A stretch of 64,000 nucleotides of DNA from Circinella umbellata (lineage: Eukaryota; Mucoromycota; Mucoromycetes; Mucorales; Lichtheimiaceae). Position numbers and translations under genes: made by a program. The notes below the pieces were generated by a model. It had not been told where the DNA came from. It made no database searches and was given only the letters and a program-made list of their open reading frames with translations. Positions 30,508-61,953 of the stretch are shown here, in pieces. The stretch is taken from contig JAIWNF010000023.1 of NCBI GenBank assembly GCA_025093555.1, forward strand, positions 434,001 through 498,000, given 5' to 3'. Every line of letters begins with the position of its first letter. The first letter of the stretch is position 1.

Positions 30508-32322
30508 TACTGCATGCTTTTTGTTTTTTTGTTGGTGCTTCGTTGCAAAGTATAATTGGAATAGGAAAGGTATAATGCAGCAGGAATTGTTTTGGAAACT
30601 TCACCATTAGATTTTTGTAAGGCACGCTTTTTTGCCTTAAGTACTGTTTTTCGAATTACAGTCTATTTTGTCTTTTATGAGTGGTACATATATATTATTC
30701 AAGTCAATATTAAATATACTCTCACCCGGAATCTCACTTACTTTTATTTGCAACATCGCTTTTAATGCGGGTGGTAATGACGTTACTTCGTGGAGAGATT
30801 TTGGCAGAGTGATAGACTTTAATTCAATTATACGATATATCTTCGGGTAAAGCAGATTCATCTTATATGTTGTCATGGCAAAACCCTGCACTAAAATACC
30901 ACATACCACTGGATTTTCGATACCAAGCTTTATCAAATCATCAATCTTCCATTTCATTTCTTTACCCATCTTTACTAGATCGGATTCAACAACATTGTTA
31001 CTATTTGCATTTGTTGAAGATTTACTTCAGAAGGTGCAGTATTATAATCATTTTGGTGACTGACAAAGACTACGAAACCAGGTTTGAACTTGGCATCATC
31101 GTCATCACTGCGCTTTCTTTTCCCACCAAGTTTTCCATTCGCCCTACATTTAATGTAAATATGTATATGTATGCTAATATTTGTATTTATTGTGTCAAAG
31201 ATATAAAGTTAGACTGAACCTACCACTGATATTTGAGTAATTTGTCAGATTGAAATACAGATTCGAAAATAACAGAAACAATATGATGAACAAACGAATC
31301 TTCAAGCTGAACATTGGGGGCACCATTAGATAAATTCAAAGCCCTGTTTCAAAACATTTTATAAGTATAAATATATACACATGTACAGATAGACAGAAAA
31401 ACTTACAAGTAATGTAACAAATTTGCTGCAATAGTTTCAACTTTATCTTGACTTTGGCGTGCTTCAACTAAAAATGGAAGCGTTATATCTTAGACAGCAA
31501 ACCAATCTGTACAGTGGTCAGTTTCCTAATTTTGATTTTCATATTGTTGGTTGTTAGCTCCTTAGATAAACACCCACATATAAAAATGTGTTGAAAATGA
31601 GTACATACATCAGACAGTTTGGAGCACCAGTTGATAATTTTTGAGTTCAAACTTACAGCACCATCACGTATTTATAGGTCACTATTGATTTTCTTTATAA
31701 TGCTTTCTAGGTGCTCACTAAACGAAAAAAATAAAAAATAAAGCAGATTTATATTATTATTATGTCACCAAATATCCAAAATAATTTGAGGCATATTAAA
31801 GAGTAAACTAATCTATGGTAAGTTACCCGTCATCATCAATTTCATTATCATCGTAAGTTCGTAAGTGTCCATGAATTGTGTAATACATGAACCTTTGTCC
31901 AACGCAAAAATATATATGTGATTTAAAGATCTATATATGTGTATAATATGTTACAAATAAATTTGATAATATTAGCTTGCCTGGTAACTTTTTAAAGTGA
32001 TTAAGTTAGATTATGTAAAAAAGACGGAGGTCTGATGCTCTTTTTGGGTTAATGGATTTTGAGATTCTTCAAAACTTCTGTAATGATTCAATAACATCGA
32101 AGCTTTTGACATTCCATTGTTCTTCATGAATAGTTGTTGTTGTTGTCTTTTTTGTGTCACCAAATGGACTTGGTTCCAATTCAGTCGATATTAAAGACTC
32201 ATCGCCGCTGTCATCATCACTAAGGATTTTTCCAAGTTCATAATCCAGAGTACGTTGAGGATGGTATGGATTAAGTATAGAATATAGGGTTAATTGAAAC
32301 TCCGCAATTTATCTTGTATATA

Positions 32323-35300
32323 TCTATATTATTAAAATAATAACTTTTACACAAAAAAGGAAATTTTATTAGTAAAACTTACTACTACACAAAAAAGGAA
32401 ATAGGACTGAGTTAAAAACTAATAAAACATTTTATTATCAGGTGTAATAATAAATAGCGTGTAAAATATAATACACTTATATCATAAGAAGGTGCAAAAT
32501 AGTCTTCTTTTAACTTTTTTTACCCAATGTCAACCTCCATTTGTAATTCTTGCGGTTTGCCCGGTCATCAACGCATTTCTCATCGAAATTGTCTTAACAA
32601 TCCGAATCGTTTGGCGATCGGCAATCATAATGAAACTAAAGAGCGTGAGTTTAACTTTGTTCAAACTTCTACTGCAATCAGTGCTCCTATTTGCTCCAGC
32701 TGTGGACAAGAGGGCCACCGACGTACTACGCACCGAGATTGTTTGAACAATCCAAATCGTTTGGCAATGCGTGATCGCAATAAGAATGAAGCGCGCGATT
32801 TGGAATTTATTCGAGAGTCCTCAGAAATCGCTGTTCCTGTTTGTTCGAGTTGTGGACAAGAAGGTCACAGGCGCGTAACACATAATGATTGTCCAAATAA
32901 CCCTAGCAACCGGGATGACTCAGAAACTGTTAGTTCATTATTTCTACAAATATTCTATATCTATTCTATTAGTGATTATTTAGCGAGTATATTAACGATT
33001 AATTATATGTTTATGGTATTGATTAAAGGCTCACAATGCTGCCCGTGTTTCCAGCAACACGATTCCAGAACGACATTCTCTTGGATCTATGGATAATGAA
33101 TGTACTCACTGTCACGCTCGGCTTTGGAATCAAGAGCGCGTTTCTTCAAGCTCCCTGAGCAGACCCCGATTTAACATATGTTGTCAGCAAGGAACTGTGC
33201 AACTTCCAGAACTAAGTCCCGCACCTACAGAAATAGTTCAAAGGCTTTATGGTAGTGATTCTAATTCTACACACTTTCGTTCTAATATTCGTGCCTACAA
33301 CAATGTATTAAGCTTTACATCACTTGGAGCTAATATCGATCATACTGTTGCTAATGCTCGTGGTGGAGCATATAATTTTCGTATCCACGGAAGCATGTAC
33401 CATAGCATTGGATCACTATTGCCTAATGAGAATGAGACACCAGCGTTTGCACAAATTTATGTGCTTGATAATTCATCTGCTGAAACTGCCAATCGGCATG
33501 CTGTTGCTCCTGTAACTCTTAATAATGCTGTACTCCAACAATTACAAAACATGATGCATCGCCTTAATCCATTCGTCACATCCTTTCAAAGTATGGCAGA
33601 AGTTTCACGCACTCATGGTATTGATAATGTAAGAATGGTAATTAGATCCGAAAATACTCCAGATCATAGACGCTATAACGCACCAACTGCCGATGAAATT
33701 GGAATTCTTATTGTCGGAAATGATGGAAATGAAAATGCTGGTACGCGAGATATCGTCCTGAGAACGCGAGCTGATGGCTTAGAAAGAATCAGTGAGATGC
33801 ATCGCTTCTATGATGCACTACATTATGTCTTACTTTTTCCCCAAGGTTAGTAACGTGCCATAAGCAGATTGCCTTTTTTTAGAGCCGTGTATACACTAAT
33901 AATTCAATGCTATAATAATATATTCAGGCGATGAAGGATGGACTATTGACGCAAGATTTGGCACCCACAAAATTACTGTGATGGAATGGTATAAATACCG
34001 CCTCATGGTCCGTGGCAATGCGAGAGAAGATAATTATTTACATCGGTTTGGAAAGTTGTTTCAGCAGTTTATAGTTGACATGTATGCAAAGATGGAAGCC
34101 AATCGTTTGGGATTTATTCGTCATAACCAAAATAGACTACGGACAGACCTTTATCGTAATGTTGTAGATGCTATGCATGTTGGTGATAATGACATGGCAA
34201 CTGTTGGAGAGCGTGTTATTTTACCATCATCATTTATCGGGTCCCCTCGGCACATGCAACAGCTATACCAAGATGCCATGAGTATTGTACGACGCTTTGG
34301 AAAGCCAGATCTTTTTGTGACGATGACCACAAATCCCAGGTGGCCTGAAATTGAAAATTCTCTTTTACCAGGCCAACGTGCTTCTGATCGTCCTGATCTC
34401 ACTACTCGCGTTTTTCGCTTGAAGCTAAAAGAACTTATAGATGACCTCACAAAGAATATGGTTCTTGGTAAAGTGGTCGGGCATGTTCATACGGTAGAAT
34501 TTCAAAAGCGTGGATTACCTCATGCCCATATTCTATTAATTCTTGCAAATGAGGATAAACCTCAAACTGGTGCTAATTGTGATGACATTGTTTCTGCTGA
34601 GCTTCCTGATGCAGAACAATATCCAGATGCACGGGCAACAGTTGAGCGTCACATGATCCATGGTCCATGTGGCCTTTTAAATCCTCGCTCTCCATGCATG
34701 GAAGATGGAAGATGCACAAAGCGCTTTCCTAAGGAATTTAATGATGATACGCAAATGAATGAGGATGGCTACCCAATATATCGTCGTCGTAATAATGGTA
34801 TATATGTTGTAAAGCATGGGAATAGAATTGACAACCGATGGGTAGTTCCACATAATCTGTACCTATGTACCAAATACGATTCACATATTAATGTTGAAAT
34901 CTGTACCTCCATCCAATCAATCAAATACGTTTACAAATACGTATTCAAAGGTCATGACCGCTCATCTGCTGCTATCATCCAACGTACTGGTACAACCTCT
35001 GAAATCAATAATGAAAATGCTGGGGCAGTTGATGAAATTCAAACTTTTCTTGACGCCCGTTATGTTTCAGCTTCAGAAGGATGTTGGCGTTTATTTTCAT
35101 TTTCTCTTCATAATGAATTTCCCTCTCATCAACGCTTGGCTATACATTTAGAGAATGAACATACAGTTCATTTTGAAGAAGGCGAAAATCCAGAAGCAGT
35201 TGTCGGACGTGTCCATGAAACTACATTAACTGCATGGTTCCAGTATAACCAACAACGTCAGCATGCCCGTCAAATCCTTTATCCTGATTTTCCAGAACAG

Positions 35301-38098
35301 CATGTATTTATTACACTTGAACGTCGCTGGAAACTTCGTGAACGTGGCTTTGGTGGTACTATTGGTCGCATTTATGCTGTCTCTCCACGCGAAGTACAAA
35401 AATATCACCTTCGACTTTTACTTTACCATGTACCTGGTGCAACTTCCTTTGATGATTTACGCACCATTAATATTGGAACTCCAGAGCAATAATTGTTGCC
35501 TTCATTTCAAGCCGCTGCGCGGGCACATGGTTTATTAACAGATCAGCAAGAGTGGAGTGATTGTCTTGATCAAGCAGCTACGTACCAGTACCCACGTGCA
35601 CTTCGGCATCTTTTTGCCATTATATTGGTATTCTGCCACCCTGAAAACCCCTATGCTCTGTGGTTAGGGCATCGAAATGATATGTCCGAAGACTTTTTAC
35701 ATGCAGCACGCCAAGATCTAAGCGATCCAAACTTACAATTTACAGATGCGATATACAACCAAGCATTGTTAGATATCGAATCTGTGTTAATTCCATTATC
35801 AAGGTCATTGCGTGAATTTGACGATTTTATCGTGCCAGAACCTGTACATGATGGTGCAAACATGGAAGAGCCACTACTGATACGTGAGCACCGTCAACTG
35901 TCAGCACGTCTTGCCTTATGACCAGCCCGCCAGTACGAATTTAATGATAATCAGCAAGCCATCTATGATGCTATAAACAACTCTATAGCTGCTCCCCAAC
36001 AACAATCAAAACTGCATTTTGTAGATGGTCCAGGAGGAACCGGAAAAACATATCTTTTTAATGCTATTCTTGAAAACGTCCGAAGAAATAATTCTATTGC
36101 TCTTGCTGTTGCTACAAGTGGTACTGCAGCTTTATTGCTTGATGGTGGACGTACAGCCCATTCAACATTCAAAATTCCATTAGAAACAAATGAAACGTCG
36201 GTATGTGGCTTTACTCCTTGCTCTGATACGGCAAGATTAATAAAATTAGCAAGCATAATCATTTGGGATGAAGCATCCATGATTAGTCGCGATGTAATTG
36301 AAACCGTTAACCGTAGCATTCAAGACATAATGCGTTCTGTGGATCCAGATCTTGAGAATATTCCCTTTGGTGGAAAAGTTGTTGTGTTTGGCGGCGATTT
36401 TCGTCAGGTACTTAATTTAAAATAAATAAGCTTATGTTAGTCAGGGATAAGAGTTCAGTGCTTTTGTTAATCAATTTGATAATACTTATATATAATATTT
36501 TGCAGGTTCTTCCTGTGATACCAAATGCTGAACGTCCTCAAATCGTAGCTCAATGTTTGAACCGATCTTCCATTTGGCGTCACATTGAAGTACACCATCT
36601 TCATATAAATATGCATGTTCAGCAAGCTGCAAATACTGTTGATGGTGCTGAATTACGCGAGTTTGCAGAATATCTCTTGCGTATTGGTAACGGCTCAGAG
36701 CCATTGGTGCCTGGCACTGAAGACCGAGTTCTTATTAGTCCCCATATGCTTATGCCACGCTATAATACATATGATCTGATTGATGCTGTATTTGGAGATT
36801 TGCATTCGCCTAATGTGAACATGGAATTCCTGACGAGCCGTGCTATTTTGACACCAAAAAATGTAGATGTTGTAGAGCTAAATAACCTGATACTTGATCA
36901 GTTTCCAGGTGAAATCCACGAGTTCAGAAGTGCTGACCAAGTAGATGATCCTGAAGATCAAATCCGTTATCCAACTGAACTACTTAACTCTTTTAATCCA
37001 GCAGACCTTCCCCCTCATACTCTCAAGCTCAAAGTTGGTTGCCCCATCATGCTACTTCGAAATTTAAACACTGCTCAAGGGCTTTGTAATGGAACTCGCT
37101 TAATTGTTCGATCTTTTCACCAATATGTACTTGAAGCTGAAATTGCCACTGGTCCACACACAGGCACAATAGTTCTTATTCCACGAATCACCCTTACGCC
37201 TTCTCAATCCCGTTCGCCTATTCAATTTAAAAGGACACAATTTCCTGTCAGATTGGCATTCTCTATGACCATTAACAAATCACAAGGTCAAACATTTAAT
37301 AGTGTGGGGCTTTATTTACCTGATCCGGCATTTACTCATGGTCTTTTATATGTTGCTATGTCGAGAGTTAGAATACCAACTGCTATCAAGATTATGCTCA
37401 ATCCAGAAAATTCTACTTCCTCTGAGCAGAATGGATTCCACACAAGAAATATTGTATACAATGAAGTCCTTATATAGGCAACCTCTGTTATTCTTTATCT
37501 CATTCATTTTTCTTTTCTCTTCTTGCTATTATCATCGCTCCTATATTAACTATTATATCTCTAACTTCTCTTTTATCTCTTACTGCACCTTTTCTTTCAA
37601 TAAATATGCTCCACACACATATACATACCAATAGACTAATATAGCCTTAAATATGTATTTTTTTTACTCCAAATAGCTTACAGGCGGTGACAAACAAGTA
37701 CAAATAATGCATCAAGATAACATAAATATATATATATATATATATTCACATATTACAAAAAATTTTAATAAGCTGTTCAAAACAGTTAAACATAAGTATC
37801 AATTGATTTTTTTTCTGGATGCCATATCATACATATATAACCATTTTCAAACGTGACTCTATTAATTTATGACATTATTATTATTATTATTATTATCATT
37901 TGTAATTTTTAAAACTAATGTCTGATATATTTTTTTATCTCAAAATGTATGATACAGCCTTGAATATCGTTGCTACCAGGCGCGAAGCGCCGTTAGGGGT
38001 CAAAGGGGGTTCCCCCCCTTTGCGACGCAAACCGCTAAATGACCCGGAGCGAAGCGAAGGGGCTCATTTATCCGAGCGAAGCGAGGAAGGGTTGCTAG
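32323..38098 (+). mobile_element. Helitron H1, complete, autonomous type but mutated
   Basis: Starts TCTATATTATTAAAATAATA, ends in CTAG after a GC-rich 3' region with a GGCGCGAAGCGCC hairpin, and is inserted between A and T, all Helitron hallmarks. It lies exactly between the GTATATA end of E1's left segment and the 5' end of H2. Copy B of E1 has those two sequences directly joined, so it is the empty site. It encodes a Rep/helicase protein with two nonsense codons. Confidence 0.93.
32527..37477 (+). pseudogene. Helitron Rep/Pif1-helicase with N-terminal zinc-knuckle repeats
   Basis: Rolling-circle transposase of H1. Exons: 32527-32928, 33029-33845, 33928-36407, 36506-37477 (1557 codons, all in phase). 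The N-terminus has three CxxCGxxGHxRxxHxxC units about 50 residues apart, unlike canonical CCHC knuckles. The Helitron N-domain follows, then the Rep nuclease with the HUH motif in RGLPHAHILL and the two-tyrosine helix KYVYKYVFKG. The Pif1-type helicase has Walker A GPGGTGKTY, Walker B IIIWDEASM and VVVFGGDFRQ, and ends with the INKSQGQTF and YVAMSRVR motifs. Two in-frame stops interrupt it: TAA at 35490-35492 and TGA at 35919-35921. Both are one C-to-T change from CAA/CGA sense codons, and everything else stays open. It is therefore recently dead, or read through only rarely. Confidence 0.92.
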
Positions 38099-38948
38099 TC
38101 TATATTATTAAAATTGAATTTTATACACAAAAAAGGAAATTTTACTAGCAAAAATAATTTTTACTACTACACAAAAAAGGAAACATGACTGAGTTAACAT
38201 TTTATGAGGTGTAATAATAAATAGCATGTGCTGTAAAATAAAAAATCACAATGTCACAATATCACAATAAGGTGCAAAATGGTCGTCTTTTAACTTCTTT
38301 AAACTGTATCGATATCTATTGTATTTCTTGCATTTCTTATCGAATTTGTATCAACGATTGACTATCATAATGACTTTGTCTAAACTTTTATTATCATACA
38401 ATTGTGTTTCTGTTTGTTCGAACTATCATATCTACAATTTTTTTCTTATCTCTAATGTACATTTTCTTTCAATATATATATATCAATAGAATAATATAGT
38501 CTTTAGCATGTATCGCGTTTTTTTTTTGCTCCAGATGGCTTACAGGTGTTGACAAACAAGTACAAATAATGCATCGATATCGGGGTTATATGTGTGTTTC
38601 TTCACACACTACAGAAAATTTAATGAGCAGTTCGAAACAGTTTAGAACAAAAGCATCAATTAACTTTTTTCTAAATGCCATACTACACATGTATAATATA
38701 TTCTCATAGATGATTTGATTGATTCACTACATTATTATTATTATTATTATTTGTGATTTTTTACACTGGCATCTATTATATATTTTTTTCTCAAAAAGTA
38801 TTATACAGCCTTGAATATCGTTGCTAACAGGCGCGAAGCGCCGTTGGGGGTCAAAGGGGGGAACCCCCTTTGCGACGCAAACCGCTAAATGACCCGAAGC
38901 GAAGCGAAGGGGCTCATTTATCCGAGCGAAGCGAGGAAGGGCTGCTAG
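38099..38948 (+). mobile_element. Helitron H2, non-autonomous, copy A
   Basis: 850 bp starting TCTATATTATTAAAATTGAA and ending GCTGCTAG. It shares the 5' ACACAAAAAAGGAAATTTTA blocks and the GC-rich 3' 110 bp with H1 but has no Rep or helicase. It abuts the 3' CTAG of H1 without any intervening base. Internal TAT and ATT microsatellites are present. Confidence 0.9.
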
Positions 38949-38950
38949 TA

Positions 38951-38990
38951 TCTATATTATTAAAATTGAATTTTATACATTAATAAAATA
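38951..38990 (+). repeat. Third Helitron-like 5' end (solo)
   Basis: Two bases after H2's CTAG, the sequence TCTATATTATTAAAATTGAA begins again and matches H2's first 28 bases, then diverges into E1's AT-rich interior. No CTRR end with a GC-rich hairpin is found for it before the E1 right end. It is either the stub of an older Helitron or a host site that H2 entered. Confidence 0.6.
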
Positions 38991-39237
38991 AAATGACAAA
39001 AAGGGAACATATAAAGACTTCACCTGTTGAAAGAAAAAAAAAAGAGAAGTAATAATTTTTTTTTATAAAAAAGATCATATTCGTGTATTAAATATAGATG
39101 ATAATAACAAAAATATAAAAATTGATGATAAAAATATAGATGATAATAATAATGAAATTGATAAAAATATAAAAACTAATAATGAAAATAAAGATAATAA
39201 TATTTCTATTAATTATACTGTTAAAAATTATAATGGT

Positions 39238-40170
39238 ATGATAGATAAAATATTTGAAAATTATAATATAGCAAGTATTCCTGAATTAAAATTTGCATTA
39301 AATTATTATAATAAAAAATTTATTGACGAAAATAAAAACATTAAATATTTTAATAAACAAGATTATTTATTATTAGATTATATTATATTAGAAAATAAAA
39401 TAAAATGTATAAAAATAAAGAATATTAAAAAGAAATATAATGATCATATAAATAAAATAAAAGATATTGATAAAGAATTAAAACAATTAGAAAGAGAATT
39501 TAATATTTATTATCATAATAATTTAACAATATGTAAAGAAAAAACATGTAAAACAAAAGTGGGAAATGATATATCTTATTGTAATAAACATTCACCACAA
39601 TATTGTGAGAGATGTAATTATATATGTAATATAAATGATAAAGCTGATAGATTATATTATAATAAAAAATATAATATTTTAAATTATTATAAAACATGTG
39701 CTCATGAAATATATTTTGACGAATATTGTAAAAATTATAAATTAGAAGATATATTTTATATTATTGATGAAAAAGATATGTTTTATAATACTAAAAAGAT
39801 ATTAAGTAAAAGTAAATATTTGAGTTTAAAAAAAGATAAAGAATTATTTGATGAAATTGAAAATATTAATGAATTACAAGAAAAAGAAATTTTAGAATTT
39901 TTAGAATATAATACTAATGATTATAATGACTTTACAAAATATAAGTTATATAATAGAATTAAAAGAAGTACTGATTTATTAGAAACATTTAATGAAAATC
40001 TTATTAATATAAAGATAAAAAGTTCGTTTTCTTCATATATAAGTAATATACAATTTAATGCTTTTAAAAAGTTTTTATATAAATTATTAAATATTGACAA
40101 TATTAAAAATAATAACATCATAAATATATTATATATAAATTATTTACCTTCATTGGATCTCTTACTATAA
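39238..40170 (+). CDS. E1-encoded 310-residue AT-biased Cys-containing protein, copy A
   Basis: A single uninterrupted ORF, extremely rich in Asn, Lys, Ile, Tyr and Asp, in DNA far more AT-rich than any neighbour gene. It has a coiled-coil-like N-terminal half, then a Cys/His cluster at about residues 97-135 (CKEKTC, YCNKH, QYCERCNYIC) that could bind zinc, a CAHEIYF...YCK segment, and a long helical C-terminus. In-frame open sequence extends upstream to about 39030, and a separate 19-codon ATG frame (from 38994) lies before it. The frame relation between the two depends on a T-run (9 T here, 10 T in copy B). I recognise no family. It is the only candidate product of E1. Confidence 0.6.
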   Translation: MIDKIFENYNIASIPELKFALNYYNKKFIDENKNIKYFNKQDYLLLDYIILENKIKCIKIKNIKKKYNDHINKIKDIDKELKQLEREFNIYYHNNLTICKEKTCKTKVGNDISYCNKHSPQYCERCNYICNINDKADRLYYNKKYNILNYYKTCAHEIYFDEYCKNYKLEDIFYIIDEKDMFYNTKKILSKSKYLSLKKDKELFDEIENINELQEKEILEFLEYNTNDYNDFTKYKLYNRIKRSTDLLETFNENLINIKIKSSFSSYISNIQFNAFKKFLYKLLNIDNIKNNNIINILYINYLPSLDLLL

Positions 40171-40384
40171 AATTATATAATGTCTCTGTATTCTATATTT
40201 GATCCGATGGTAGTCCCATGTTAAATTAGACCGAGAATCGTCATCAACTTCTTCAATACCATCATTAATCGGAACATCACCAAGCTCTTCTTCATTAATA
40301 CTATCAATATTATTGTTATTTTTGCTACTGCTGTTACTTCCACTACTGCTACCAACAATGGGCTCTTGGCTACTACTAGGACTA

Positions 40385-41106
40385 CCGTCACCGCTCGCTA
40401 TAACGATATACCCTATGAGACTAAAAGAGCATCGTTATATCGAATTATCACTATAACGAATTCTTGATCTGAGCTACAATGGTCAGGTAAAACCCTATCC
40501 ATATGTACTTAGCCTTATTGGTATCGATATGTCTTACAAAAAGAAGAACGCTCTAGAATACTATATTGTTCATACTGTAAATAAGCTATAATAATATGGC
40601 GATTGCTTTTTTCTCTTTGCATAGTTTCTTTTTATTAAATATGTCTTTTCGTATTAGTTCTAATTGAATTAGAACCAGCTCAGCACATATAATTAATGCT
40701 GATGGCCTATAGGGAAAAAATGCGCATACTTACTAAGACCCAAAAAACTGTTTATTCTTTATAAAGCCATGCAGGATAGCGGGTGGTGGGTTGGGTTCCT
40801 ACAGTGAGTGAAAAGCAAAGCTAGATTGTCATAAGGAATGGTTTAAGATAAATTTAATGTTCAAATCATTAAACTCTTGATAAATAAAATTAAAAAATGT
40901 CCAGCAATTACTATGTATTGTTTACTTTTTGAAAATATAACTATATTCTTTGTTCACTCAATATAACGATATTTTTGCTGGAACCTTGTTGGATATCACT
41001 ATAGAAAGTTAGTGATATTTCCCTGCTTAATCCGTCCTGGACCCTAAAACCCTATCGTTATATTGAAATGTCGTTATATCGAATATCGTTATAGTGAGCG
41101 GTGCAG
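40385..41106. mobile_element. pogo-like MITE inside gene W, copy A (722 bp)
   Basis: The subterminal inverted repeats are CACCGCTCGCTATAACGATA and its near-inverse at 41080-41104, with TA duplicated at 40383-40384 and 41107-41108. The CTATAACGA-type ends are typical of pogo/Fot1-like elements. Interior GATATAACGA phrases repeat near both ends, and there is no ORF. Joining the flanks with one TA restores an open gene W frame across the site. Confidence 0.8.
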
Positions 41107-41212
41107 TACTTCTTGTATTAACTATATAACTATCACCAATTATGATCTTGGAAGATTTGATATTCACTATCTTCTGAGATTCCTGGTGTGATTCGTCTTG
41201 TGATGTTTTTTT

Positions 41213-49026: not shown

Positions 49027-51930
49027 ATGACCAACATTCAGTGGTGTATCGATAATGCTGGAGTTCTCTCAATTAAATCTTTTGCTGATAATTTCGGTTT
49101 AACGAACAAAGAACAGGCGAACACCAGATACTCAAATATTTTACAATCAGAACAACTATCTACTCTTGCAAATGTAGCAGAACTGAAGGCTGCCTTTTCA
49201 ACTTGGAAAGACAGTAGTCTCGAAGCTGATTATTGGCGTGGTAAAAGCATGTCTGAATCTCGAAAAGAGACAGAGGCTGGATTAACTAAAAACGTGTTAA
49301 ATACAATGAAACGCATTGGAGAAGGGGAGGAAGAAAGAATCACGCAAAGAAGGTACTTTTGAACGTAATTTCAAGTGAAAAGAAAGAAAGAAACACAAGT
49401 TTAGTATTTTTTTACACTTACTTGTGGACGAATTACTGATCCAATTGTTGATAAGGAGGGTAACAGCAGTATTGATACACGTCCTGATACCAGTACACCC
49501 ACTATAACTGAAGCACCAACATCATCTACCGATCATAATTCTTCTTCAGCTGATATGCAATTACATCTGGATCATGGTTAGTAACAATCAAACGTCTATA
49601 GACAATGGATGTTGTATCCAACACATATTATTCATAAAGATAATTATTTGTCATTCTAATTATTAAAGTATAGCGTATCTTTAATTATGCTTTGCTGACA
49701 TTTCGTGTATTTCCCTATTTGGACCATGATTTATAAGAACACAGAAGTCTGTCTTCTATAATGATATAAGGTTACAGCTGCGTAGATATATCATATCGTC
49801 AACCGCTCAAAGTCTAATCTTAATATCATTAATCTTATATTCATAATTCACACGGCCATGACAAATATAAATCTTACGTATACACATATCAATATATCCC
49901 ACTGATAATAAGATTCATATAAATAGAGATAATATTTTATTTTAATAAACTTCAGTTCAATTATTGTTCTTTTGGGTCTCGTTGACTTTTTAACGTCTCT
50001 TTTATTTTATTATATTTGATTGATATAACAATGGATAGTAAATTTTTTATCTTTATATATATATATATATATATATAAAGTTACTGACAATAGTTTCATT
50101 GTGTATAGGTCAACTTAATGAGGAGAAAGGAATCATTGATCTGACATGTACCGATGTAGAAGAGCAATTTGAAGATGTGAACGGAGAAGATCGGGCATCT
50201 GACTATAGTGAAGAATTATCAGATGATGATTTGATGGAATACGATCTTACCTTACAAGATACGTCTTATTCAACCATTGACGACAATGAACGTCGTAAAA
50301 CAAAAGACATTCATGGTTCGGTTTTTCAAGAAAAATTAGTAGTTAAAGAAAAGGATAGTGTATGTATGAGGGAAAACTTATTTTTTTTATTATATAAATA
50401 ATTTGATTTGTCTACTTGCTGACACACATTTTTTGTTTTAATTTCGGGAATAGTGGTTCGTCAAGCAAGGAGAGAAATTGGTAAATATGACCAACATTCT
50501 TAATAATTATCGAACAAGATCACTTAAGGAAAATAAGAAGGATCACAAGGCTATTAGTTCTACACGAGCTTTGTAAGTAGCGATTTTACAATTGAATTCG
50601 GATGTATTACAGCTTTATGAACCTTAACTGACCATGATATTAATTTGAAACATTACAGAAGTTTAAATTGTGTTTATCTTAATACAATACGCGATCAATT
50701 GAAACCATATATTAAAGAAAAGCTTCATGTTATGTTTGAACGAAGCCAAGGTTTCGAAGCATTACTGGTACAGGTATTAATATGGTCTAAAACAGTTGAT
50801 AATGTAAAGTATTGGGTTATTTTTTTGATATTGGGGACATCCATTATTTTCTAAATGTTTAATTGATATAATTTATGTTGATAAAAATAGATCTTGAATA
50901 ACGAAACTCGGGACGAATTTATCTTGGAAAAAGCATTATTAGGATTTAAGACTCAAGCACTCGGTCTTAATAATACTTACATCACCTCATATGCATGAAC
51001 TATATATGATATTGCGAATACTCCATTCAAAAAGAATGACAAAGAAGTGAACGAAGACACACTAGTTCATTATATCTTACATTCACCATTACATTGGATT
51101 TTCGCCGCAGACAATCGTTTGGAGTATCAGTGGTATGATCAGGTGTTATTGTGATTATAGAGAGTCTTCAAATCTAACTTATTACTTATATATAGGGCGA
51201 ATGCGTCTCTTGATTATTGTAAAGGAAAAAAAGGCGAACAAAAACAACCCAATTTCACTGTCTATGCTGAAGTAAAGCGACGGCGATATGATCTATTTGT
51301 TGTTGAAGTGAAACGCGTTGGTGAACTGGAAGGTAGTGATCTTGTCAAGACTGGAAATATGCTTAGAGAAATGCTTTCGAAGTTGGTAATCGGCAAGGTT
51401 CCAAATCCAGTTGTCTTTGGTATGGTGATGAACGGTACGTTTTACGGATTCACTTGGAGATAAAGTATCTTTTAAAAAGAATAGGACTATAGATTTTAAC
51501 GGGTTTAAAATAGGATACAATTGTACAACATATAAACTACAATTAAATCATGCCTATGTGTTTGAATTGATCGAATTGAAAAAGTTTGATCTTCCCAGTC
51601 AACCACACAATTTCAAACAAATTGATAATGCAGTAGAAGGTTTAAATCAAATCAAGTATGTGACACTTTTTATTTAACACTTATTATACTTTATCTTCTT
51701 AATACTGATATTGATAATTATTTGGATGGCTTGACTATATATTTTAGACTTTGGTGTTACAAATGAAGGAAAAAATTGTTAAGAGATACAAAGACCACGA
51801 AGGTAACAACATTACATTTACAAAAATCCCAGATTCGTTTATTCCCCCTAATGCTGAATCAATTCCTAAATCCAGCGGCAAAAGAAAGCTCAAGACAAAT
51901 AAAAATAATGAATCAAGCACAAGTCAATAG
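49027..51930 (+). pseudogene. Gene Y: PD-(D/E)XK-like nuclease family member, probably dead
   Basis: Same architecture as gene W: a 100-residue basic helical N-domain (49027-49353, MTNIQWCIDNAGVLS...), a Ser/Thr/Asp/Glu-rich linker over several short exons (about 49460-50370), helical exons, then a nuclease-like core. Core exons are 50891-51132 (EDTLVHYILHSPLHW, ending LEYQW), 51196-51434 (NFTVYAEVK and RYDLFVVEVKRVGELEGSDL) and 51514-51655 (TTYKLQLNHAYVFELIELKK). A basic Lys/Ser-rich tail follows, ending at TAG 51930. The EVK motif is intact, but the strand where copy B of W has Asp (KADF) reads QPNF here. An in-frame TGA at 50996-50998 (CGA expected) and a phase mismatch at the last splice suggest inactivation. 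Function is unknown; a DNA-cleaving or nuclease-derived role is inferred only from the motif. Confidence 0.65.
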
Positions 51931-52656
51931 GTTGATTTTCTCCTCTGCTCTCCTCTCCTCTTCCCCTTCTATTTTTTACATATCCAAACTTTCCTTTCTC
52001 TTTTTTTATAGTGTTTATTAATGAAAAAAAAAGATAAGTAATAACAAATTATAAAGTAAAAAAAAAGTACATAATAATAGTAATAATCATGTCCATATAA
52101 TAGTTTGCACATACATATTAAAAATAAAGAAAACAAGTATTATATTTCATTCAGGTTCCCAAAAAAATTTTGGGTTCCCAGCTAAATGGGAACCCGTCGG
52201 AGTAATAACTTATGTTATCAGGCAAAACTTTGTCAAATAACAATTGTTATTTGACTTTGGGTTCCCACTGGTGCCACCCATAGTGTTATTAATTATAGCT
52301 TTGTACCGAAATGCATTATATTAAAAAAAAATGAATAAAAAACATAATTTTCTTATATATTTTTAGCCAATGTCTCTTTTCACCATATTACTAGTAAAAA
52401 CTATCTCGTTTCAGCCAAAAAAAAAACTAAGATAAAAGATCTTTTTATTTGATAAAAAATAAATAAAAAACCTCATTACATTTTTTCTCTTCCAAAATTT
52501 GTTTGTTGCCATACCAACACATCCATTCATTTCTTGAAAGACTTAATACAGTATCTTAAAAAAATCAAAAAATGGTCATTTTCTTCTTCGTATACATCAT
52601 TTTCCATTTTCATAAATAGCGTTACGACTAAATTACAATAGTAAACCATCATGTGC
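51931..52656. other. Intergenic region with hairpins
   Basis: No gene supported. It contains GGTTCCCA and GGGAACCC phrases at 52155-52197 and 52258-52270, and the perfect 24-bp palindrome at 52232-52255 (GTCAAATAACAA and its inverse). These may be a tiny hairpin element. Confidence 0.5.
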
Positions 52657-52800
52657 CTTCCATTATTGTGTGCTTTTACTTTTGTGCAACTTTCATTATT
52701 GCGTGATTTGGCTTCTTGCATGATTCGCATTATGGCGTAATTTAACTTTTTGCATGATTTTCACTATTGCGGGCTTTACTACCTTCAACATTGGGTGATT
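52657..52800. repeat. Degenerate ~34-bp tandem repeats with TTATTGCGTG phrase
   Basis: About four imperfect units, each with TTATTGCG or TTATGGCG followed by TTTTGCATGATTT-like sequence. They lie upstream of the Tc1/IS630-type transposase remnant and resemble the GCGCAAA array on its other side, so both may be parts of that element's ends. Confidence 0.5.
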
Positions 52801-53802
52801 TGGTTAGCACAAGTCGATGTAAAAAATTGTTATCCACAACGCTCTGTACTTCTAACAATATTGGTGGAAACGTATTGAAATCATCAGCAGCAAACAAGAC
52901 ATCTGATTGCATGTCATTTGCCTATTCCTTTGAGTGAGGCTGATATTGATCAACCGCGCTTGGTCCTAATCAAACAACAGAAAGAGTAAGAAAACAACAT
53001 AATATCATATACTAACAAAGTCTCGGTAACAGCTTACCAATAAGCTCTTTTATTATAAATGTTATGACATCAGCGTTCAGCAATACTGGTCTACTCATTA
53101 AGTCAGTTCTAGGGCGGTTCTTATATGGTAAAGTAAAAAGAAGAGTATCTGTGCTATGCAACGGCATTTCGATATAAAAAAAAAGCTGTTAGCAACAACA
53201 TAACTGGGTCTATTTGTGTTGTCGCTTGGCAATAAGTTAGACGAAAGGACAATAATGAATCTAATTTAGATAGTAGCATATATTATATAAAAGTAACCAT
53301 ATCATCATAGTCGATATTCTAGTATAATTTTAAGTAACATATCATACAGAAGACAATAGCAACTAATTAATAATCCAATCCAGGTTGAACAAGTTGTGTA
53401 GGAAGAAGAATAATGCGGCTACAATAAGTGTTAGCATCTCCCTTCACAGGAATACCTTGAGCTTTTTTTTATGAAAAAGTGTTTTATAGCCGAGTGGTCG
53501 CAGTATTCTTATATTGATCTCCTTACAATCGCGTAGATCACTGAAAAATTACATTAATCACTAAAGGCTTATACTGACGACCTGAAAACTACACTGGTTT
53601 ATAAACTTTATATCCATAGAGTAAAAAAATGTATTCCCCTTCTTCCATTTTTATATTTTTAAATGCAAAACACTGTATATTTTTGCGTTCCTATTTTTGC
53701 GTCGTACTTTTATCTATTTTGGCATTAAAAAAATGGCTCATATGCAATTTATTTACGAGTTTAATTGCATCGCTGATGAAATATTGACTCACAACTGTCC
53801 CG
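52801..53802. other. Region upstream of the transposase remnant
   Basis: About 1 kb with no intact ORF. It is AT-rich, ends in TTTTTGCG phrases (53678-53710), and is presumably degraded transposon sequence. Confidence 0.4.
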
Positions 53803-54187
53803 TTGAATGCCATGTTGGAACACGTACAGAACATTTTATCGAGTTTGGATATTCTTGATAAAAACAATATGAAAGGATGTTACTTGGTGGTGGACAACTC
53901 ACCCATCTATACAAATCAGTCAATTACTTGTCTTATGGAACAACGTGGCTATGAGTGTACTTATCTTCCCTTTCTCAATCCAATAGAAGGGTTTTGGTTA
54001 AATGTGAAATTAAGTATAATATGTGGCCAGCATTACTTTTATTAAGCTTAATATTATTATCATTGTAGGTATTCGAAAAGCCAAGCTAAGTGAGAAGGAT
54101 CAATTGACCCCGAGAATAACTAAAGCTGTTAAAAGAGTAACCAAGGATGACTATCAGATGGATCAAGCATGCAATGTCGTTTTTTGA
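53803..54187 (+). pseudogene. Tc1/mariner (IS630)-type transposase, C-terminal remnant
   Basis: Two exons (53803-54013, 54069-54187) encode the last third of a DDE transposase. CYLVVDNSPIYTNQ holds the second catalytic Asp, and YLPFLNPIEGFWLNVK holds the terminal acidic residue in the NPIE motif typical of this superfamily. The N-terminal DNA-binding and first-Asp regions are not found upstream. The splice joins in phase. GCGCAAA-type repeat arrays lie on both sides. Confidence 0.75.
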
Positions 54188-54289
54188 TGCTTGCCTTGAA
54201 AAAAAAGTCTTATAGCAACCTGCTGTAGATTTTTTTTTTGTTTTATAAGTAGCTTTCAATAAAATAAAAGTTAATACACATATAATAAA

Positions 54290-54925
54290 AGAACAAAATA
54301 CAAAGTTAGTAACGCAAACATAGTAACGCAAAATTACTGGCGCAAATTTGTTTCCCAAGCAATGCAAAATCTTTTGTGAGTAATGCAAAAAATTTAATAT
54401 GGAAATGCAAAGTCTCATTCTCATTGACGCAAAATTATTTCTGCTTGGCGCAAATGATTTGGAAAAAACCAGTAAATAGTCTAATTCATAAATAATAATA
54501 AACGCCAGTCTTTCGGATATACATAAATATAACCCAACCTATAACCATAACAATACCGGATTTTTAGACTGCTTTTGCGCATTGTAATTATATTTTTTGC
54601 GCACTTGCAATTTTATTTTTGCATACTTCATTAATTTTTTTTGCGCATATAAAATTATTTCGAAAATCAACAATAATGATAATGTTCTCAAATATATTTA
54701 TTAACAGCATTCAATATTAAGATTATTAATAAATAACTATATATTATAATATATTTTCTGAAATATGTGAGCATTGTAAGGAAGTTTATTTGTAAAAGAA
54801 AAAAAAGTTAATGCGCAAAAATAACATTAGGGTGTGCAAAAAAATTAATAGGAGTACGCAAAAAATCCAGTACTGTGGTACAAAGTCTTCAACTGTGCTT
54901 ACAAATTAATTTAGGTTAGTGCGAA
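54290..54925. repeat. Cluster of GCGCAAA/TTTGCGC iterons
   Basis: At least a dozen copies of (T/A)GCGCAAA-like heptamers occur, first as ACGCAAA/GCGCAAA (54310-54450), then as TTTTGCGCA (54570-54650), then again as GCGCAAA (54810-54860). They end in a TACAGTACAGG-type terminus near 54935. The flipped orientation in the middle suggests long TIRs made of short repeats. Confidence 0.6.
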
Positions 54926-55526
54926 AAAACCTGTACTGTAATTTGACTCAGCACTTTTGATACTGACATTGATCTTGCCTACTATTCTGCTGTCTTCTAT
55001 GTTAAAAATTTATATATTACCACGATTCGAAATATGGCTCGGAAATAGCTTATATAAAAATATTACGCTTTGTCTCCTTCATTTTTTTTTCTTTTTTAAT
55101 AATCATTGTGCATGTTTCATGTTTTGTTTCTACAGTACTAATATTATTATGTTATTTTTATCATCTCTTTGGCAGATGAATGTACGGATTAGCTTATTAT
55201 CAACTTTCACATTATTTATAGCTTTAAATTTAAACCTGTTTAACTAGTCTGATATCAATAATATAAATATATGATGTGATTATTTTTTTTTCTGTTTTAG
55301 GACCATGCATAAAAGCAACTGATTCATTGATGTCACATTTTTTTTTATTTTTCATATCTTAAAGAAATAATAGTTATGCAAAGGTACCATGACAAAATTG
55401 TAAAACAAAAGAATAAAATTAAACACAGCCATAGAGGAGGAATAAGGGGGTGGTCACTAGGGCAATCTAAAAGTATATAAAAAGCACGTAAAATGAGCCA
55501 GTTCACCCTTAATTCACGCATTCCAA
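54926..55526. other. Upstream region of gene W copy B
   Basis: No gene supported; AT-rich, ending in a TATA-bearing promoter. This sequence has no counterpart upstream of copy A. Confidence 0.5.
55474..55483 (+). promoter_or_regulatory. TATA-like box of gene W copy B
   Basis: TATATAAAAA lies about 50 bp before the ATG at 55527. Copy A loses homology exactly at the ATG, so this promoter belongs to copy B only. Confidence 0.45.
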
Positions 55527-55880
55527 ATGTCTGACTTTTTTAAATCTATTCCAATCGACCACTGGTCATTGGAGGAATACTGTAAATACAAGAATGAAGA
55601 GAATAAGAACAAAAAGAACTATAAATCTTTGAAACAACTATGCCAAGAGTACATTGGTTTGCTTGAATCTTTCTTTAAAAAGGAGACCAACCACAAAATC
55701 ATGTCAAGAATTGGTCGAATCATTAAAGATTGCAAAGATAAGGTGGCTATATTAATAAATGCTGTGAAAGAAAAGTACCAACAAAATATTATTCACCGAT
55801 TAATTGAATGTTTCTCTTGTATTCTCTATCTTTTTCTGTTAGCCTGCCGATTATCATACCTATCCGCAGCAAGAAAAAAC

Positions 55881-57023
55881 GGATTAAGTATAGAATATAG
55901 GGCAAGTTAAAACTCCGTCATAATAAACTTTAATTTTTTCATCTTATTTGTATTAACTTTAATTATTTAATAATATCATTTATAAAAATAAATATTTTCA
56001 GTATCTTAATTTATTTTAACTTAATTTGAGATAAAAAAAAAGGGCAAAAAAAAACCTTGTAGGTTCATACAAGGAACAAAAACAATTTGTTTTTTGTTTT
56101 TTTTTAAAGAAATTAATCATTTATAGACTTGTTTATTTAACTTCAACAAATCTACACTGTTGTGTTTCTAAAAATTAGAAACACTATTTTTATTTTTTAT
56201 AGTTACACCTAAACGCATGCAACTAGTATCGATAAGGTCGATACTGTCCTCTTGTTGGCCAACAAATATTTTTTGTTTTTTTTTGAATTTTATTAAGAAG
56301 AAAACATAAAATGAATTAAATTTTCTAATGAAAAATTTAATAAAAGGATTCCATTAGTTAAATAAAATAGATCGTGTGCACCCAATCAAAACAAAGTTTA
56401 ATTTGTTTTTTTTATTTTATTAATTAATTTCTTTTAAAAGTAAATGTAAATAATATTTACCTTACTTTCCAAGTATCTTTTTATTTAAAAATAAAAATTC
56501 AATTTTTATTTTAAATATATGTTGAATTTAAAAATGTTAATTTGTTAATTATATTTACAATTGTATATTTAGTTTTCAAAATAGAGTTCTTCAAAAATTT
56601 AGAGATAATCAGGTATATAAAGATATTTCAATGAAAGAAAATGATGATTTTTTATTTTCATTATCAAAAGATGAAAATATAGATAATAAATATATATTGG
56701 ATAATTATTTATAAAATCAAATTGTTCAAAAAAAAATCATAGAACATACAATTAATAAAGAAAAATAGCTACAAAAATATTGATAAAAACATAATTCATT
56801 GAAAGATGATATTATTGACGAAAAAATAATTAAAAATGAAATGAATTTTCTAATGAATAATGAAATCAAAAATAATTTAGAAAATATTGATAAAAATAAG
56901 TAAATTGACTTTTAAATCACAATCTATTTTATATTCAATAAAATAAATAATTAGTAGTTATATATCTTTATTGAACATTTTATTATCAAAAATTATAATA
57001 CCCTACATTCTATATTTGATCCA
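55881..57023. mobile_element. AT-rich GGAT-ended element E2, copy B
   Basis: Inverted counterpart of 41213-42354, with AAAAAAC at 55874-55880 and 57024-57030. Without it, the flanks read on in the coding frame (QQEKTSQDESHQ). The four hairpins are conserved (56055-56074, 56162-56184, 56226-56244, 56252-56265). A broken plus-strand frame (about 56570-56903) contains KFRDNQVYKDISMKENDDFL and ends in KNNLENIDKNK, with four stop codons inside. Confidence 0.75.
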
Positions 57024-57128
57024 AAAAAACATCACAAGACGAATCACACCAGGAATCTCAGAAGATAGTGAATATCAAATCTTCCAAGATCATAATTGGT
57101 GATAGTTATATAGTTAATACAAGAAGTA

Positions 57129-57850
57129 CTGCACCGCTCACTATAACGATATTCGATATAACGACATTTCAATATAACGATAGGGTTTTAGGGTCCAGGA
57201 CGGATTAAGCAGGGAAATATCACTAACTTTCTATAGTGATATCCAACAAGGTTCCAGCAAAAATATCGTTATATTGAGTGAACAAAGAATATAGTTATAT
57301 TTTCAAAAAGTAAACAATACATAGTAATTGCTGGACATTTTTTAATTTTATTTATCAAGAGTTTAATGATTTGAACATTAAATTTATCTTAAACCATTCC
57401 TTATGACAATCTAGCTTTGCTTTTCACTCACTGTAGGAACCCAACCCACCACCCGCTATCCTGCATGGCTTTATAAAGAATAAACAGTTTTTTGGGTCTT
57501 AGTAAGTATGCGCATTTTTTCCCTATAGGCCATCAGCATTAATTATATGTGCTGAGCTGGTTCTAATTCAATTAGAACTAATACGAAAAGACATATTTAA
57601 TAAAAAGAAACTATGCAAAGAGAAAAAAGCAATCGCCATATTATTATAGCTTATTTACAGTATGAACAATATAGTATTCTAGAGCGTTCTTCTTTTTGCA
57701 AGACATATCGATACTAATAAGGCTAAGTACATATGGATAGGGTTTTACCTGACCATTGTAGCTCAGATCAAGAATTCGTTATAGTGATAATTCGATATAA
57801 CGATGCTCTTTTAGTCTCATAGGGTATATCGTTATAGCGAGCGGTGACGG
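57129..57850. mobile_element. pogo-like MITE inside gene W, copy B
   Basis: Inverted counterpart of 40385-41106, with TA at 57127-57128 and 57851-57852. The gene W frame reads NTRS|SPSSS across the repaired site, showing a precise insertion into coding sequence. Confidence 0.8.
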
Positions 57851-58064
57851 TAGTCCTAGTAGTAGCCAAGAGCCCATTGTTGGTAGCAGTAGTGGAAGTA
57901 ACAGCAGTAGCAAAAATAACAATAATATTGATAGTATTAATGAAGAAGAGCTTGGTGATGTTCCGATTAATGATGGTATTGAAGAAGTTGATGACGATTC
58001 TCGGTCTAATTTAACATGGGACTACCATCGGATCAAATATAGAATACAGAGACATTATATAATT

Positions 58065-58997
58065 TTATAGTAAGAGATCCAATGAAGGTAAATAATTTAT
58101 ATATAATATATTTATGATGTTATTATTTTTAATATTGTCAATATTTAATAATTTATATAAAAACTTTTTAAAAGCATTAAATTGTATATTACTTATATAT
58201 GAAGAAAACGAACTTTTTATCTTTATATTAATAAGATTTTCATTAAATGTTTCTAATAAATCAGTACTTCTTTTAATTCTATTATATAACTTATATTTTG
58301 TAAAGTCATTATAATCATTAGTATTATATTCTAAAAATTCTAAAATTTCTTTTTCTTGTAATTCATTAATATTTTCAATTTCATCAAATAATTCTTTATC
58401 TTTTTTTAAACTCAAATATTTACTTTTACTTAATATCTTTTTAGTATTATAAAACATATCTTTTTCATCAATAATATAAAATATATCTTCTAATTTATAA
58501 TTTTTACAATATTCGTCAAAATATATTTCATGAGCACATGTTTTATAATAATTTAAAATATTATATTTTTTATTATAATATAATCTATCAGCTTTATCAT
58601 TTATATTACATATATAATTACATCTCTCACAATATTGTGGTGAATGTTTATTACAATAAGATATATCATTTCCCACTTTTGTTTTACATGTTTTTTCTTT
58701 ACATATTGTTAAATTATTATGATAATAAATATTAACTTCTCTTTCTAATTGTTTTAATTCTTTATCAATATCTTTTATTTTATTTATATGATCATTATAT
58801 TTCTTTTTAATATTCTTTATTTTTATACATTTTATTTTATTTTCTAATATAATATAATCTAATAATAAATAATCTTGTTTATTAAAATATTTAATGTTTT
58901 TATTTTCGTCAATAAATTTTTTATTATAATAATTTAATGCAAATTTTAATTCAGGAATACTTGCTATATTATAATTTTCAAATATTTTATCTATCAT
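58065..58997 (-). CDS. E1-encoded 310-residue AT-biased Cys-containing protein, copy B
   Basis: Identical to the copy A product except for one residue (LEREV here, LEREF in copy A). It is uninterrupted in both copies while the host gene around it has decayed. Here the upstream T-run has ten T, so the short ATG frame ending at TAATAA is in register with this ORF. The Cys/His cluster and helical ends are unchanged. Not recognised. Confidence 0.6.
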   Translation of the reverse strand: MIDKIFENYNIASIPELKFALNYYNKKFIDENKNIKYFNKQDYLLLDYIILENKIKCIKIKNIKKKYNDHINKIKDIDKELKQLEREVNIYYHNNLTICKEKTCKTKVGNDISYCNKHSPQYCERCNYICNINDKADRLYYNKKYNILNYYKTCAHEIYFDEYCKNYKLEDIFYIIDEKDMFYNTKKILSKSKYLSLKKDKELFDEIENINELQEKEILEFLEYNTNDYNDFTKYKLYNRIKRSTDLLETFNENLINIKIKSSFSSYISNIQFNAFKKFLYKLLNIDNIKNNNIINILYINYLPSLDLLL

Positions 58998-59287
58998 ACC
59001 ATTATAATTTTTAACAGTATAATTAATAGAAATATTATTATCTTTATTTTCATTATTAGTTTTTATATTTTTATCAATTTCATTATTATTATCATCTATA
59101 TTTTTATCATCAATTTTTATATTTTTGTTATTATCATCTATATTTAATACACGAATATGATCTTTTTTATAAAAAAAAAATTATTACTTCTCTTTTTTTT
59201 TTCTTTCAACAGGTGAAGTCTTTATATGTTCCCTTTTTGTCATTTTATTTTATTAATGTATAAAATTCAATTTTAATAATATAGATA

Positions 59288-60138
59288 CTAGCAGCCCTTC
59301 CTCGCTTCGCTCGGATAAATGAGCCCCTTCGCTTCGCTTCGGGTCATTTAGCGGTTTGCGTCGCAAAGGGGGGTTCCCCCCTTTGACCCCCAACGGCGCT
59401 TCGCGCCTGTTAGCAACGATATTCAAGGCTGTATAATACTTTTTGAGAAAAAAATATATAATAGATGCCAGTGTAAAAAATCACAAATAATAATAATAAT
59501 AATAATGTAGTGAATCAATCAAATCATCTATGAGAATATATTATACATGTGTAGTATGGCATTTAGAAAAAAGTTAATTGATGCTTTTGTTCTAAACTGT
59601 TTCGAACTGCTCATTAAATTTTCTGTAGTGTGTGAAGAAACACACATATAACCCCGATATCGATGCATTATTTGTACTTGTTTGTCAACACCTGTAAGCC
59701 ATCTGGAGCAAAAAAAAAACGCGATACATGCTAAAGACTATATTATTCTATTGATATATATATATTGAAAGAAAATGTACATTAGAGATAAGAAAAAAAT
59801 TGTAGATATGATAGTTCGAACAAACAGAAACACAATTGTATGATAATAAAAGTTTAGACAAAGTCATTATGATAGTCAATCGTTGATACAAATTCGATAA
59901 GAAATGCAAGAAATACAATAGATATCGATACAGTTTAAAGAAGTTAAAAGACGACCATTTTGCACCTTATTGTGATATTGTGACATTGTGATTTTTTATT
60001 TTACAGCACATGCTATTTATTATTACACCTCATAAAATGTTAACTCAGTCATATTTCCTTTTTTGTGTAGTAGTAAAAATTATTTTTGCTAGTAAAATTT
60101 CCTTTTTTGTGTATAAAATTCAATTTTAATAATATAGA
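59288..60138 (-). mobile_element. Helitron H2, non-autonomous, copy B
   Basis: Inverted counterpart of 38099-38948. Its 5' TCTATATT (60138) directly follows the TATATA of E1, with no H1 between. A third solo 5' end follows its CTAG after two bases, at 59285, as in copy A. Confidence 0.88.
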
Positions 60139-61953
60139 TATATACAAGATAAATTGCGGAGTTTCAATTAACCCTATATTCTATACTTAATCCATACCAT
60201 CCTCAACGTACTCTGGATTATGAACTTGGAAAAATCCTTAGTGATGATGACAGCGGCGATGAGTCTTTAATATCGACTGAATTGGAACCAAGTCCATTTG
60301 GTGACACAAAAAAGACAACAACAACAACTATTCATGAAGAACAATGGAATGTCGAAAGCTTCGATGTTATTGAATCATTACAGAAGTTTTGAAGAATCTC
60401 AAAATCCATTAACCCAAAAAGAGCATCAGACCTCCGTCTTTTTTACATAATCTAACTTAATCACTTTAAAAAGTTACCAGGCAAGCTAATATTATCAAAT
60501 TTATTTGTAACATATTATACACATATATAGATCTTTAAATCACATATATATTTTTGCGTTGGACAAAGGTTCATGTATTACACAATTCATGGACACTTAC
60601 AAACTTACGATGATAATGAAATTGATGATGACGGGTAACTTACCATAGATTAGTTTACTCTTTAATATGCCTCAAATTATTTTGGATATTTGGTGACATA
60701 ATAATAATATAAATCTGCTTTATTTTTTATTTTTTTCGTTTAGTGAGCACCTAGAAAGCATTATAAAGAAAATCAATAGTGACCTATAAATACATGATGG
60801 TGCTGTAAGTTTGAACTCAAAAATTATCAACTGGTGCTCCAAACTGTCCGATGTATGTACTCATTTTCAACACATTTTTATATGTGGGTGTTTATCTAAG
60901 GAGCTAACAACCAACAATATGAAAATCAAAATTAGGAAACTGACCACTGTACAGATTGGTTTGCTGTCTAAGATATAACGCTTCCATTTTTAGTTGAAGC
61001 ACGCCAAAGTCAAGATAAAGTTGAAACTATTGCAGCAAATTTGTTACATTACTTGTAAGTATTTCTGTCTATCTCTACGTGTGTATATATTTATACTTAT
61101 AAAATGTTTTGAAACAGGGCTTTGAATTTATCTAATGGTGCCCCTAATGTTCAGCTTGAAGATTCATTTGTTCATCATATTGTTTCTGTTATTTTTGAAT
61201 CTGTATTTCAATCTGACAAATTACTCAAATATCAGTGGTAGGCTCAGTCTAACTTTATATCTTTGCCACAATAGATATAAATATTAACATACATATACAT
61301 ATTTACATTAAATGTAGGGCGAATGGAAAACTTGATGGAAAAAGAAAGAGTGGCGATGATGATAATAATTTCAAAGCTGACTTTGTAGTCTTTGTGAGCT
61401 ACAGAAACGATCGCTATGACATTGCAGTTTCTGAAGTGAAGCCTCGGTTGAATGCAAATACCAACAATGTTGTTGAATCGGATCTTGTCAAGATTGGCAA
61501 AGAGATGAAATGGATGATCAATAATTTGATTAAGTGTGGTACTGAAAATCCAGTGGTGTGGAGCATTTTATTACAGGGTTTTGTCTTGACAACATATAAG
61601 ATCAATCTGCTTTACCCAAAGATATATTATATGATTGGAGTAAAGTCTGTTACTCTGCCAAAATCTCTCCACGAAGTAACCTCATTACCACCCGCATTAA
61701 AGTAAGTGAAATTCCCAGTGACAGTATATTTAATATCGACCTGGAAAATATAAACTTACCATTCATAAAAAAATAGAGCATAACTCGAAAAACAGCACTC
61801 AAAGCTAAAAAGCGTGCATTTCAAAAATCTAATGGTGAAGCTGCTAACTCAATTCCTCCCGAGTTATACCTTTCGCATTCCAATTACACTCTACAACTAA
61901 GCAGCAACAAAAAACAAGAAACAAGCAACAAAAAACATAGTAATAACAAGTAG

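Follow-up and report, generated by a model that had tools for sequence, protein, structure and literature searches.

How do two inverted copies of one gene come to carry the same transposons at the same points? We examined this question in a 64,000-nucleotide stretch of the Circinella umbellata assembly (C127:434001-498000; 50.8 Mb in 210 contigs), hereafter the window, where each copy of the gene is interrupted by three elements: two transposons with terminal inverted repeats (TIRs), named E-a and E-b, and a pogo-like miniature inverted-repeat transposable element (MITE). From the shared insertion points, the initial annotation had concluded that the insertions came before the inverted duplication. 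Our comparison of the two copies indicates that the pair formed long before its lesions came to be shared. The probable explanation is an old inverted pair in which a block bearing the lesions was later copied from one member to the other, by gene conversion or a comparable one-way repair event. The locus shows that insertion points identical in two copies can be misleading, since insertion need not have preceded duplication.

Identity between the two arms is a mosaic

Self-alignment of the window confirmed two inverted arms, 30511-42711 and 61927-55524, separated by a unique 12.8-kb spacer. The first (N-terminal) piece of the gene matches the 50.8-Mb assembly at these two places only (three candidates scored). 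The copies are inverted duplicates, as had been annotated, but the arms are not uniform: divergence in the outer 0.6 kb is far higher than elsewhere. In left-arm coordinates, the arms differ by 107 substitutions over the 616 bases of 30511-31126 (about 17%), by 11 over the 274 bases of 31127-31400 (4%) and by 4 over the 922 bases of 31401-32322 (about 0.4%), while 38099-42711 holds 7 substitutions in 4613 columns. A change point was located at 31127, with a log-likelihood gain of 82. Overall, the near-identical block carries 11 substitutions in 5.5 kb (about 0.2%), with a slight drop in identity at its inner end (3/295 versus 4/4318, p 0.007). The longest identical run spans 1880 of 6398 columns, compared with a maximum of 628 and a mean of 265 in 2000 shuffles. 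The near-identical block consists mostly of introns, dead exons and transposons and the diverged part is coding, the reverse of the pattern expected if selection had acted after a single duplication.

The lesions are distributed along the same boundary. All those found in both arms (E-a with the small Helitron inside it, E-b, the MITE and three in-frame stops) lie within the near-identical block. Outside it the left copy has a frameshift and the right copy a 19-base deletion, neither of which occurs in the other arm. The annotated sharing of three elements at the same sites thus stands, with the nested 850-bp Helitron and the three stops to be added; a further Helitron of 5.8 kb is present in the left arm only.

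The outer exons carry the signature of constraint. Over three open pieces the arms differ by 41.3 synonymous changes (111 sites) and 49.7 nonsynonymous changes (399 sites), giving a synonymous divergence (dS) of 0.51, a nonsynonymous divergence (dN) of 0.14 and a ratio of 0.26 (Fisher p 3e-8); the largest piece alone gave 0.134/0.42. Together with the mosaic, this constraint indicates that the inverted pair is old and that both members were long under selection, and therefore that the lesions were copied between the arms after the pair had formed. The order of events proposed in the initial annotation is not supported by this result. The tract boundary, the division into shared and private lesions and the constraint outside the tract make the order of events readable from one genome.

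A lesion-bearing block probably copied between old paralogues

We propose the following course of events. Two paralogues of a Mucorales gene family would have arisen as an inverted (head-to-head) pair at about the separation of C. umbellata and C. minor, a date suggested by the distances to C. minor, and both would have been kept under selection. One paralogue would later have gained the three stops, E-b, the MITE, E-a and the small Helitron inside E-a. Next, the broken copy would have acted as donor in non-allelic gene conversion, or in a comparable one-way repair event, and overwritten its twin between the start codon and about 31.13 kb, a tract of about 5.8 kb if the large Helitron is left out. 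Afterwards the left arm would have received the large Helitron, and a small number of point changes would have built up. If a constant rate is assumed, the block would have been copied very recently, within roughly the last 0.5% of the pair's age (an estimate from 0.2% against the dS of 0.51). We infer both the order of events inside the broken copy and that the copying was conversion rather than another copying event.

Two features expected of gene conversion were found at the locus, a mosaic with a sharp boundary (17% to 4% to 0.2%) and paralogues older than the tract (dS 0.51 outside, about 0.2% inside). Furthermore, the outer end of the block lies inside a homologous exon and its inner end lies where homology stops, at the ATG; gene conversion fits best with these ends and with the slight taper of identity at both. 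Several observations weigh against it. The inner side of the tract is not flanked by diverged homology: the tract ends 3 bases short of the ATG, and further upstream the two copies have only short chance-like matches in common. Missing upstream homology is expected for old duplicates, yet it would also be seen at a fresh duplication breakpoint. The donor signal is conflicting as well. Among sites compared three ways with C. minor, 118 were the same in all and 3 differed in all, with changes in one sequence only at 29 sites for the left copy, 16 for the right and 3 for C. minor. This relative rate leans to a faster left copy (p 0.07), and the branches in the tree of the largest piece, 0.13 for the left copy and 0.16 for the right, lean the opposite way. 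Finally, the grouping of left and right copies apart from C. minor had a support of 89/89, below the tool's mark of 95/80.

The main rival to gene conversion is a recent inverted duplication, in which a template switch produced a new copy of the broken block that was fused, within the homologous exon, to the 3' end of the existing paralogue. In its favour, detectable homology is lost just where the block has its inner end, and other highly similar long inverted repeats occur in the assembly (contigs C130, C156 and C151; window 7471-14363). A breakpoint no more than 3 bases from the start codon would nevertheless be a coincidence, and the step in identity over 31127-31400 points to at least two rounds of copying, so that we regard a template switch as possible but rather unlikely. 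The identical insertion points in both arms would also agree with a gene that was broken first and then inversely duplicated, conversion having since kept only the inner part identical. In that case the two arms should be of one age along their whole length and the outer exons should have drifted as dead sequence, yet arm identity is a mosaic and the dN/dS of the outer exons is 0.26. Such an order would be viable only if the C-terminal part were expressed alone, as the public gene model BDC45DRAFT_535502 (P0011) would imply, and we find it improbable. An assembly artefact, in which palindromic long reads created a false inverted copy, is very improbable: artificial palindromes are a known problem of long reads, as an excerpt of PMC6218980 describes, and three other loci have near-perfect long inverted repeats, but the 12.8-kb unique spacer, the outer exons that differ by about 17% and the Helitron in one arm only all speak against it.

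A wider claim would be that a living recipient was killed by conversion from its dead, transposon-riddled twin, that such 'contagious pseudogenisation' recurs in this genome as a route of gene loss by way of its long near-identical inverted repeats, and that the E elements encode a new kind of transposase. We consider this combination doubtful and put it forward as speculation.

The scattered reading frames are pieces of one gene

The small open reading frames (ORFs) in each arm had been annotated as pieces of a single gene, and the homologues we found agree that they are, as judged by alignment. The first piece was searched with a padded query to admit full-length relatives, giving one match among 22 candidates. 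The full-length relative is INT45_011344 (P0010), a predicted protein of 609 amino acids from Circinella minor, and it supplies the uninterrupted homologue in other Mucorales that had been suggested as a check. Searching with P0010 by tblastn placed its pieces in order in both arms, on the minus strand in the left and the plus strand in the right, with E-values from 2e-7 to 7e-98. In the right arm residues 1-88, 79-115, 123-200, 199-323, 292-345, 344-423, 424-551 and 529-608 were matched. The left arm gave the same matches through 423 and then 424-463, 464-553 and 554-601, three matches being needed over this part because of the private frameshift near 31023, outside the near-identical block. 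Three extra weak matches per arm (E 0.02-0.69) were discarded, five of them lying within E-a or E-b and one within a Helitron.

The initial annotation held that removing E-a or the MITE rejoins the reading frame exactly. This is so at the E-a site, where two neighbouring matches join at residues 199-200. At the MITE site it is so apart from 7 residues (116-122) of a Ser-rich stretch, which are unmatched, and the matches extend a few bases into the MITE. Continuity through the E-a site, without insertion, was also found in four C. umbellata paralogues (on contigs C204, C175, C176 and C141), and a Mucor hiemalis protein (P0013) spans the part from the E-a site onward. An Apophysomyces ossiformis protein (P0012) has the N-terminal and C-terminal parts within a single chain. 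Continuity at the E-b and MITE sites rests on P0010; no C. umbellata paralogue covers these sites in the P0010 alignment across this genome. The linkage of both gene ends rests on P0012 as well.

The 127-amino-acid ORF of each arm is a piece of the gene, as had been noted, but probably not a single exon. P0010 and the splice signals point to exon 1, a GT-AG intron that the ORF reads through and the border of E-b; this intron would extend, in the right copy, from the GT at 55743 to the AG at 55868-55869. The three in-frame stops, defined relative to P0010, are common to both copies. In the right copy the last coding exons are each open individually, and the 19-base deletion, at one exon's end, is missing from the left copy in the arm alignment. 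The public model P0011 (59775-61950) is a chimera, which begins within a Helitron and continues into the dead right copy. The analysis exposes both a chimeric public model and a TIR transposon family whose selected ORF is as yet of no recognised kind. Coordinates of the features are collected in Table 1.

Table 1. Positions of gene pieces, inserted elements and spacer features in the window.
Feature	Position	Strand	Basis or remark
Left copy, last coding exons (putative nuclease-like part)	30511..31126	-	Outside the near-identical block; P0010 residues 424-601
Left copy, middle section: exons, introns and the three shared in-frame stops	31127..32267	-	P0010 alignment; arm comparison
E-a, left copy	32268..40205	.	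TIRs; 8-bp target duplication matching 7/8
Autonomous Helitron, left arm only	32323..38098	+	Insertion point at the smaller Helitron's 5' edge
Non-autonomous Helitron nested in E-a, left arm	38099..38948	+	850 bp, present in both arms
E-a ORF, 310 amino acids, AT-rich, open in both arms	39238..40170	+	Right counterpart 58065-58997
Left copy, acidic/Ser-rich exon piece	40207..40384	-	P0010 residues 123-200
Pogo-like MITE (putative branch), left copy	40385..41106	.	TA target duplication
Left copy, exon piece from MITE to E-b	41107..41212	-	P0010 residues 79-115
E-b, left copy	41213..42354	.	1142 bp; same TIR family as E-a
Left copy, exon 1, intron 1 and opening codons of exon 2	42355..42708	-	P0010 residues 1-88
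Unique spacer, 12.8 kb	42712..55523	.	With a Mutator-like element (MULE) remnant (43651-44421) and a third, distant gene family member
Third, distant family member in spacer	about 50924-51665 (in 49027-51926)	+	Orientation as in the right copy
Right copy, exon 1, intron 1 and opening codons of exon 2	55527..55880	+	P0010 alignment
E-b, right copy	55881..57022	.	Element-end comparison
Right copy, exon piece from E-b to MITE	57023..57128	+	P0010 alignment
Pogo-like MITE (putative branch), right copy	57129..57850	.	Coordinates transferred from the left arm via the arm alignment
Right copy, acidic/Ser-rich exon piece	57851..58028	+	P0010 alignment
E-a, right copy	58030..60193	.	Holds the nested small Helitron; without the autonomous Helitron
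Non-autonomous Helitron nested in E-a, right arm	about 59288-60138		Arm alignment
Right copy, middle section: exons, introns and the three shared in-frame stops	60194..61334	+	P0010 alignment; arm comparison
Right copy, last coding exons, outside the near-identical block	61335..61950	+	P0010 residues 424-608; public model P0011

Inserted elements

E-a, E-b and the MITE have identical insertion points in both arms. We found that the E elements are TIR DNA transposons with an 8-bp target duplication. Their TIR pattern occurs at 31 ends genome-wide, and a reversed control pattern gave none. Among the 12 copies with two ends, the target duplication matched at 8/8 positions in 6 and at 7/8 in 5, and one fold-back copy (C151) matched at only 4/8. 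When arm duplicates were collapsed, there were 7 insertions, 4 with perfect and 3 with one-mismatch target duplications; random 8-bp pairs agree at 7 or more positions in 0.12% of cases. Paired ends were not seen at 4 of the 10 E loci fetched (L038, L040, L041 and L043). E-a itself is about 1.31 kb long, and the left one is enlarged by two Helitrons.

The ORF of E-a, compared with 3 of 6 fetched copies, gave dN/dS values of 0.32-0.39, which indicates that it was under selection while the E family moved; the three compared copies now have stops or frameshifts. Its product matched no Pfam or NCBIfam profile at E 0.1, a large protein database not having been searched, and had no significant match in PDB or viral contigs. 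PHROGs gave a single weak match (E 0.035), and the structure model had a predicted local distance difference test score (pLDDT) of 33. The ORF possibly encodes a new transposase. With an ORF that shows selection and for which the searched libraries gave no significant match, the E elements are the most novel ingredient of the locus.

The MITE is 722 bp long, with TA at both ends and 27-base inverted end matches, and is too short for a transposase. It is a Tc1/mariner-type MITE, for which the pogo branch is a putative label. At least 26 further matches to this stretch lie outside the window, 40 of the 120 candidates having been scored. Helitrons are recognised by a Rep/helicase protein, a 3' hairpin with a CTRR end and insertion between an A and a T that leaves no target duplication. 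The 5.8-kb autonomous element encodes Rep and helicase domains by profile search (Helitron_like_N 9.5e-64; PIF1 4.5e-13), and the Helitron ends, read directly in the sequence, agree with this definition.

The gene family and a possible nuclease

Proteins of the PD-(D/E)XK nuclease fold have the residues PD...(D/E)xK. The C-terminal part of P0010 shows this residue pattern, a PD (P443-D444) followed by 17 residues and ExK (E462-K464). K464 is invariant and P443 and E462 are nearly so, while D444 is absent from the listed conserved columns; the PD reads AD in the right copy and PG in the left one. No named family reached its cut-off in profile searches with the gene family, and the fold model of this region was too weak to settle a nuclease fold. 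'Nuclease-like' may serve as a lead from the PD...ExK residues. One C-terminal exon has at least 21 matches in the genome, and the whole of P0010, searched by exon pieces, has at least 65. Inverted neighbouring members of the family were seen at C133:506379-507900, C178:217066-218779, C173:142231-142895 and C13:617786-625219. An acidic ORF lies directly upstream of the third family member in the spacer region 49027-51926.

Comparison with known systems

The event proposed here is of a known kind, and the locus is a clear and well-preserved natural example. In humans, conversion from pseudogene to gene, as from CYP21A1P to CYP21A2, passes the lesions of a dead copy to a living neighbour, usually in short tracts. 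The Circinella pair is similar in that lesions of a dead copy would have been transferred, but its tract is about 5.8 kb and contains three transposons.

In ape sex-chromosome palindromes, arms are kept near-identical through intrachromosomal gene conversion, according to an excerpt of PMC11168930. Both systems have inverted repeats with near-identical arms. In apes, as that excerpt puts it, conversion is thought to counteract decay, whereas the tract copied in Circinella is dead and filled with transposons, and homogenisation is confined to part of the arm. The wtf family of Schizosaccharomyces pombe, which undergoes non-allelic gene conversion (PMC6526906), is likewise a multigene family of a fungus in which pseudogenes and mosaic members occur. 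The wtf genes are meiotic drivers, whereas the Circinella family has no assigned function, and the likeness is one of description. Among the papers listed in searches of the open-licence literature, none gave an account of this locus or of conversion that spreads transposon insertions from one inverted fungal paralogue to another.

Other inverted repeats in the assembly

Tight palindromes, which may be either real or assembly artefacts, were also seen elsewhere. One on C130 (L021/L022) is 100% identical over the 3285 bases compared. Two others contain E elements, with 99.8% identity over 3.6 kb on C156 (L034, 526501-536500) and 99.9% over 4.8 kb on C151 (L035/L036). Within the window, a second long inverted repeat at 7471-14363 has arms of about 2.4-2.6 kb that are 96-100% identical by stretch and a spacer of 1.6-1.8 kb, and it includes a 12-bp tandem array.

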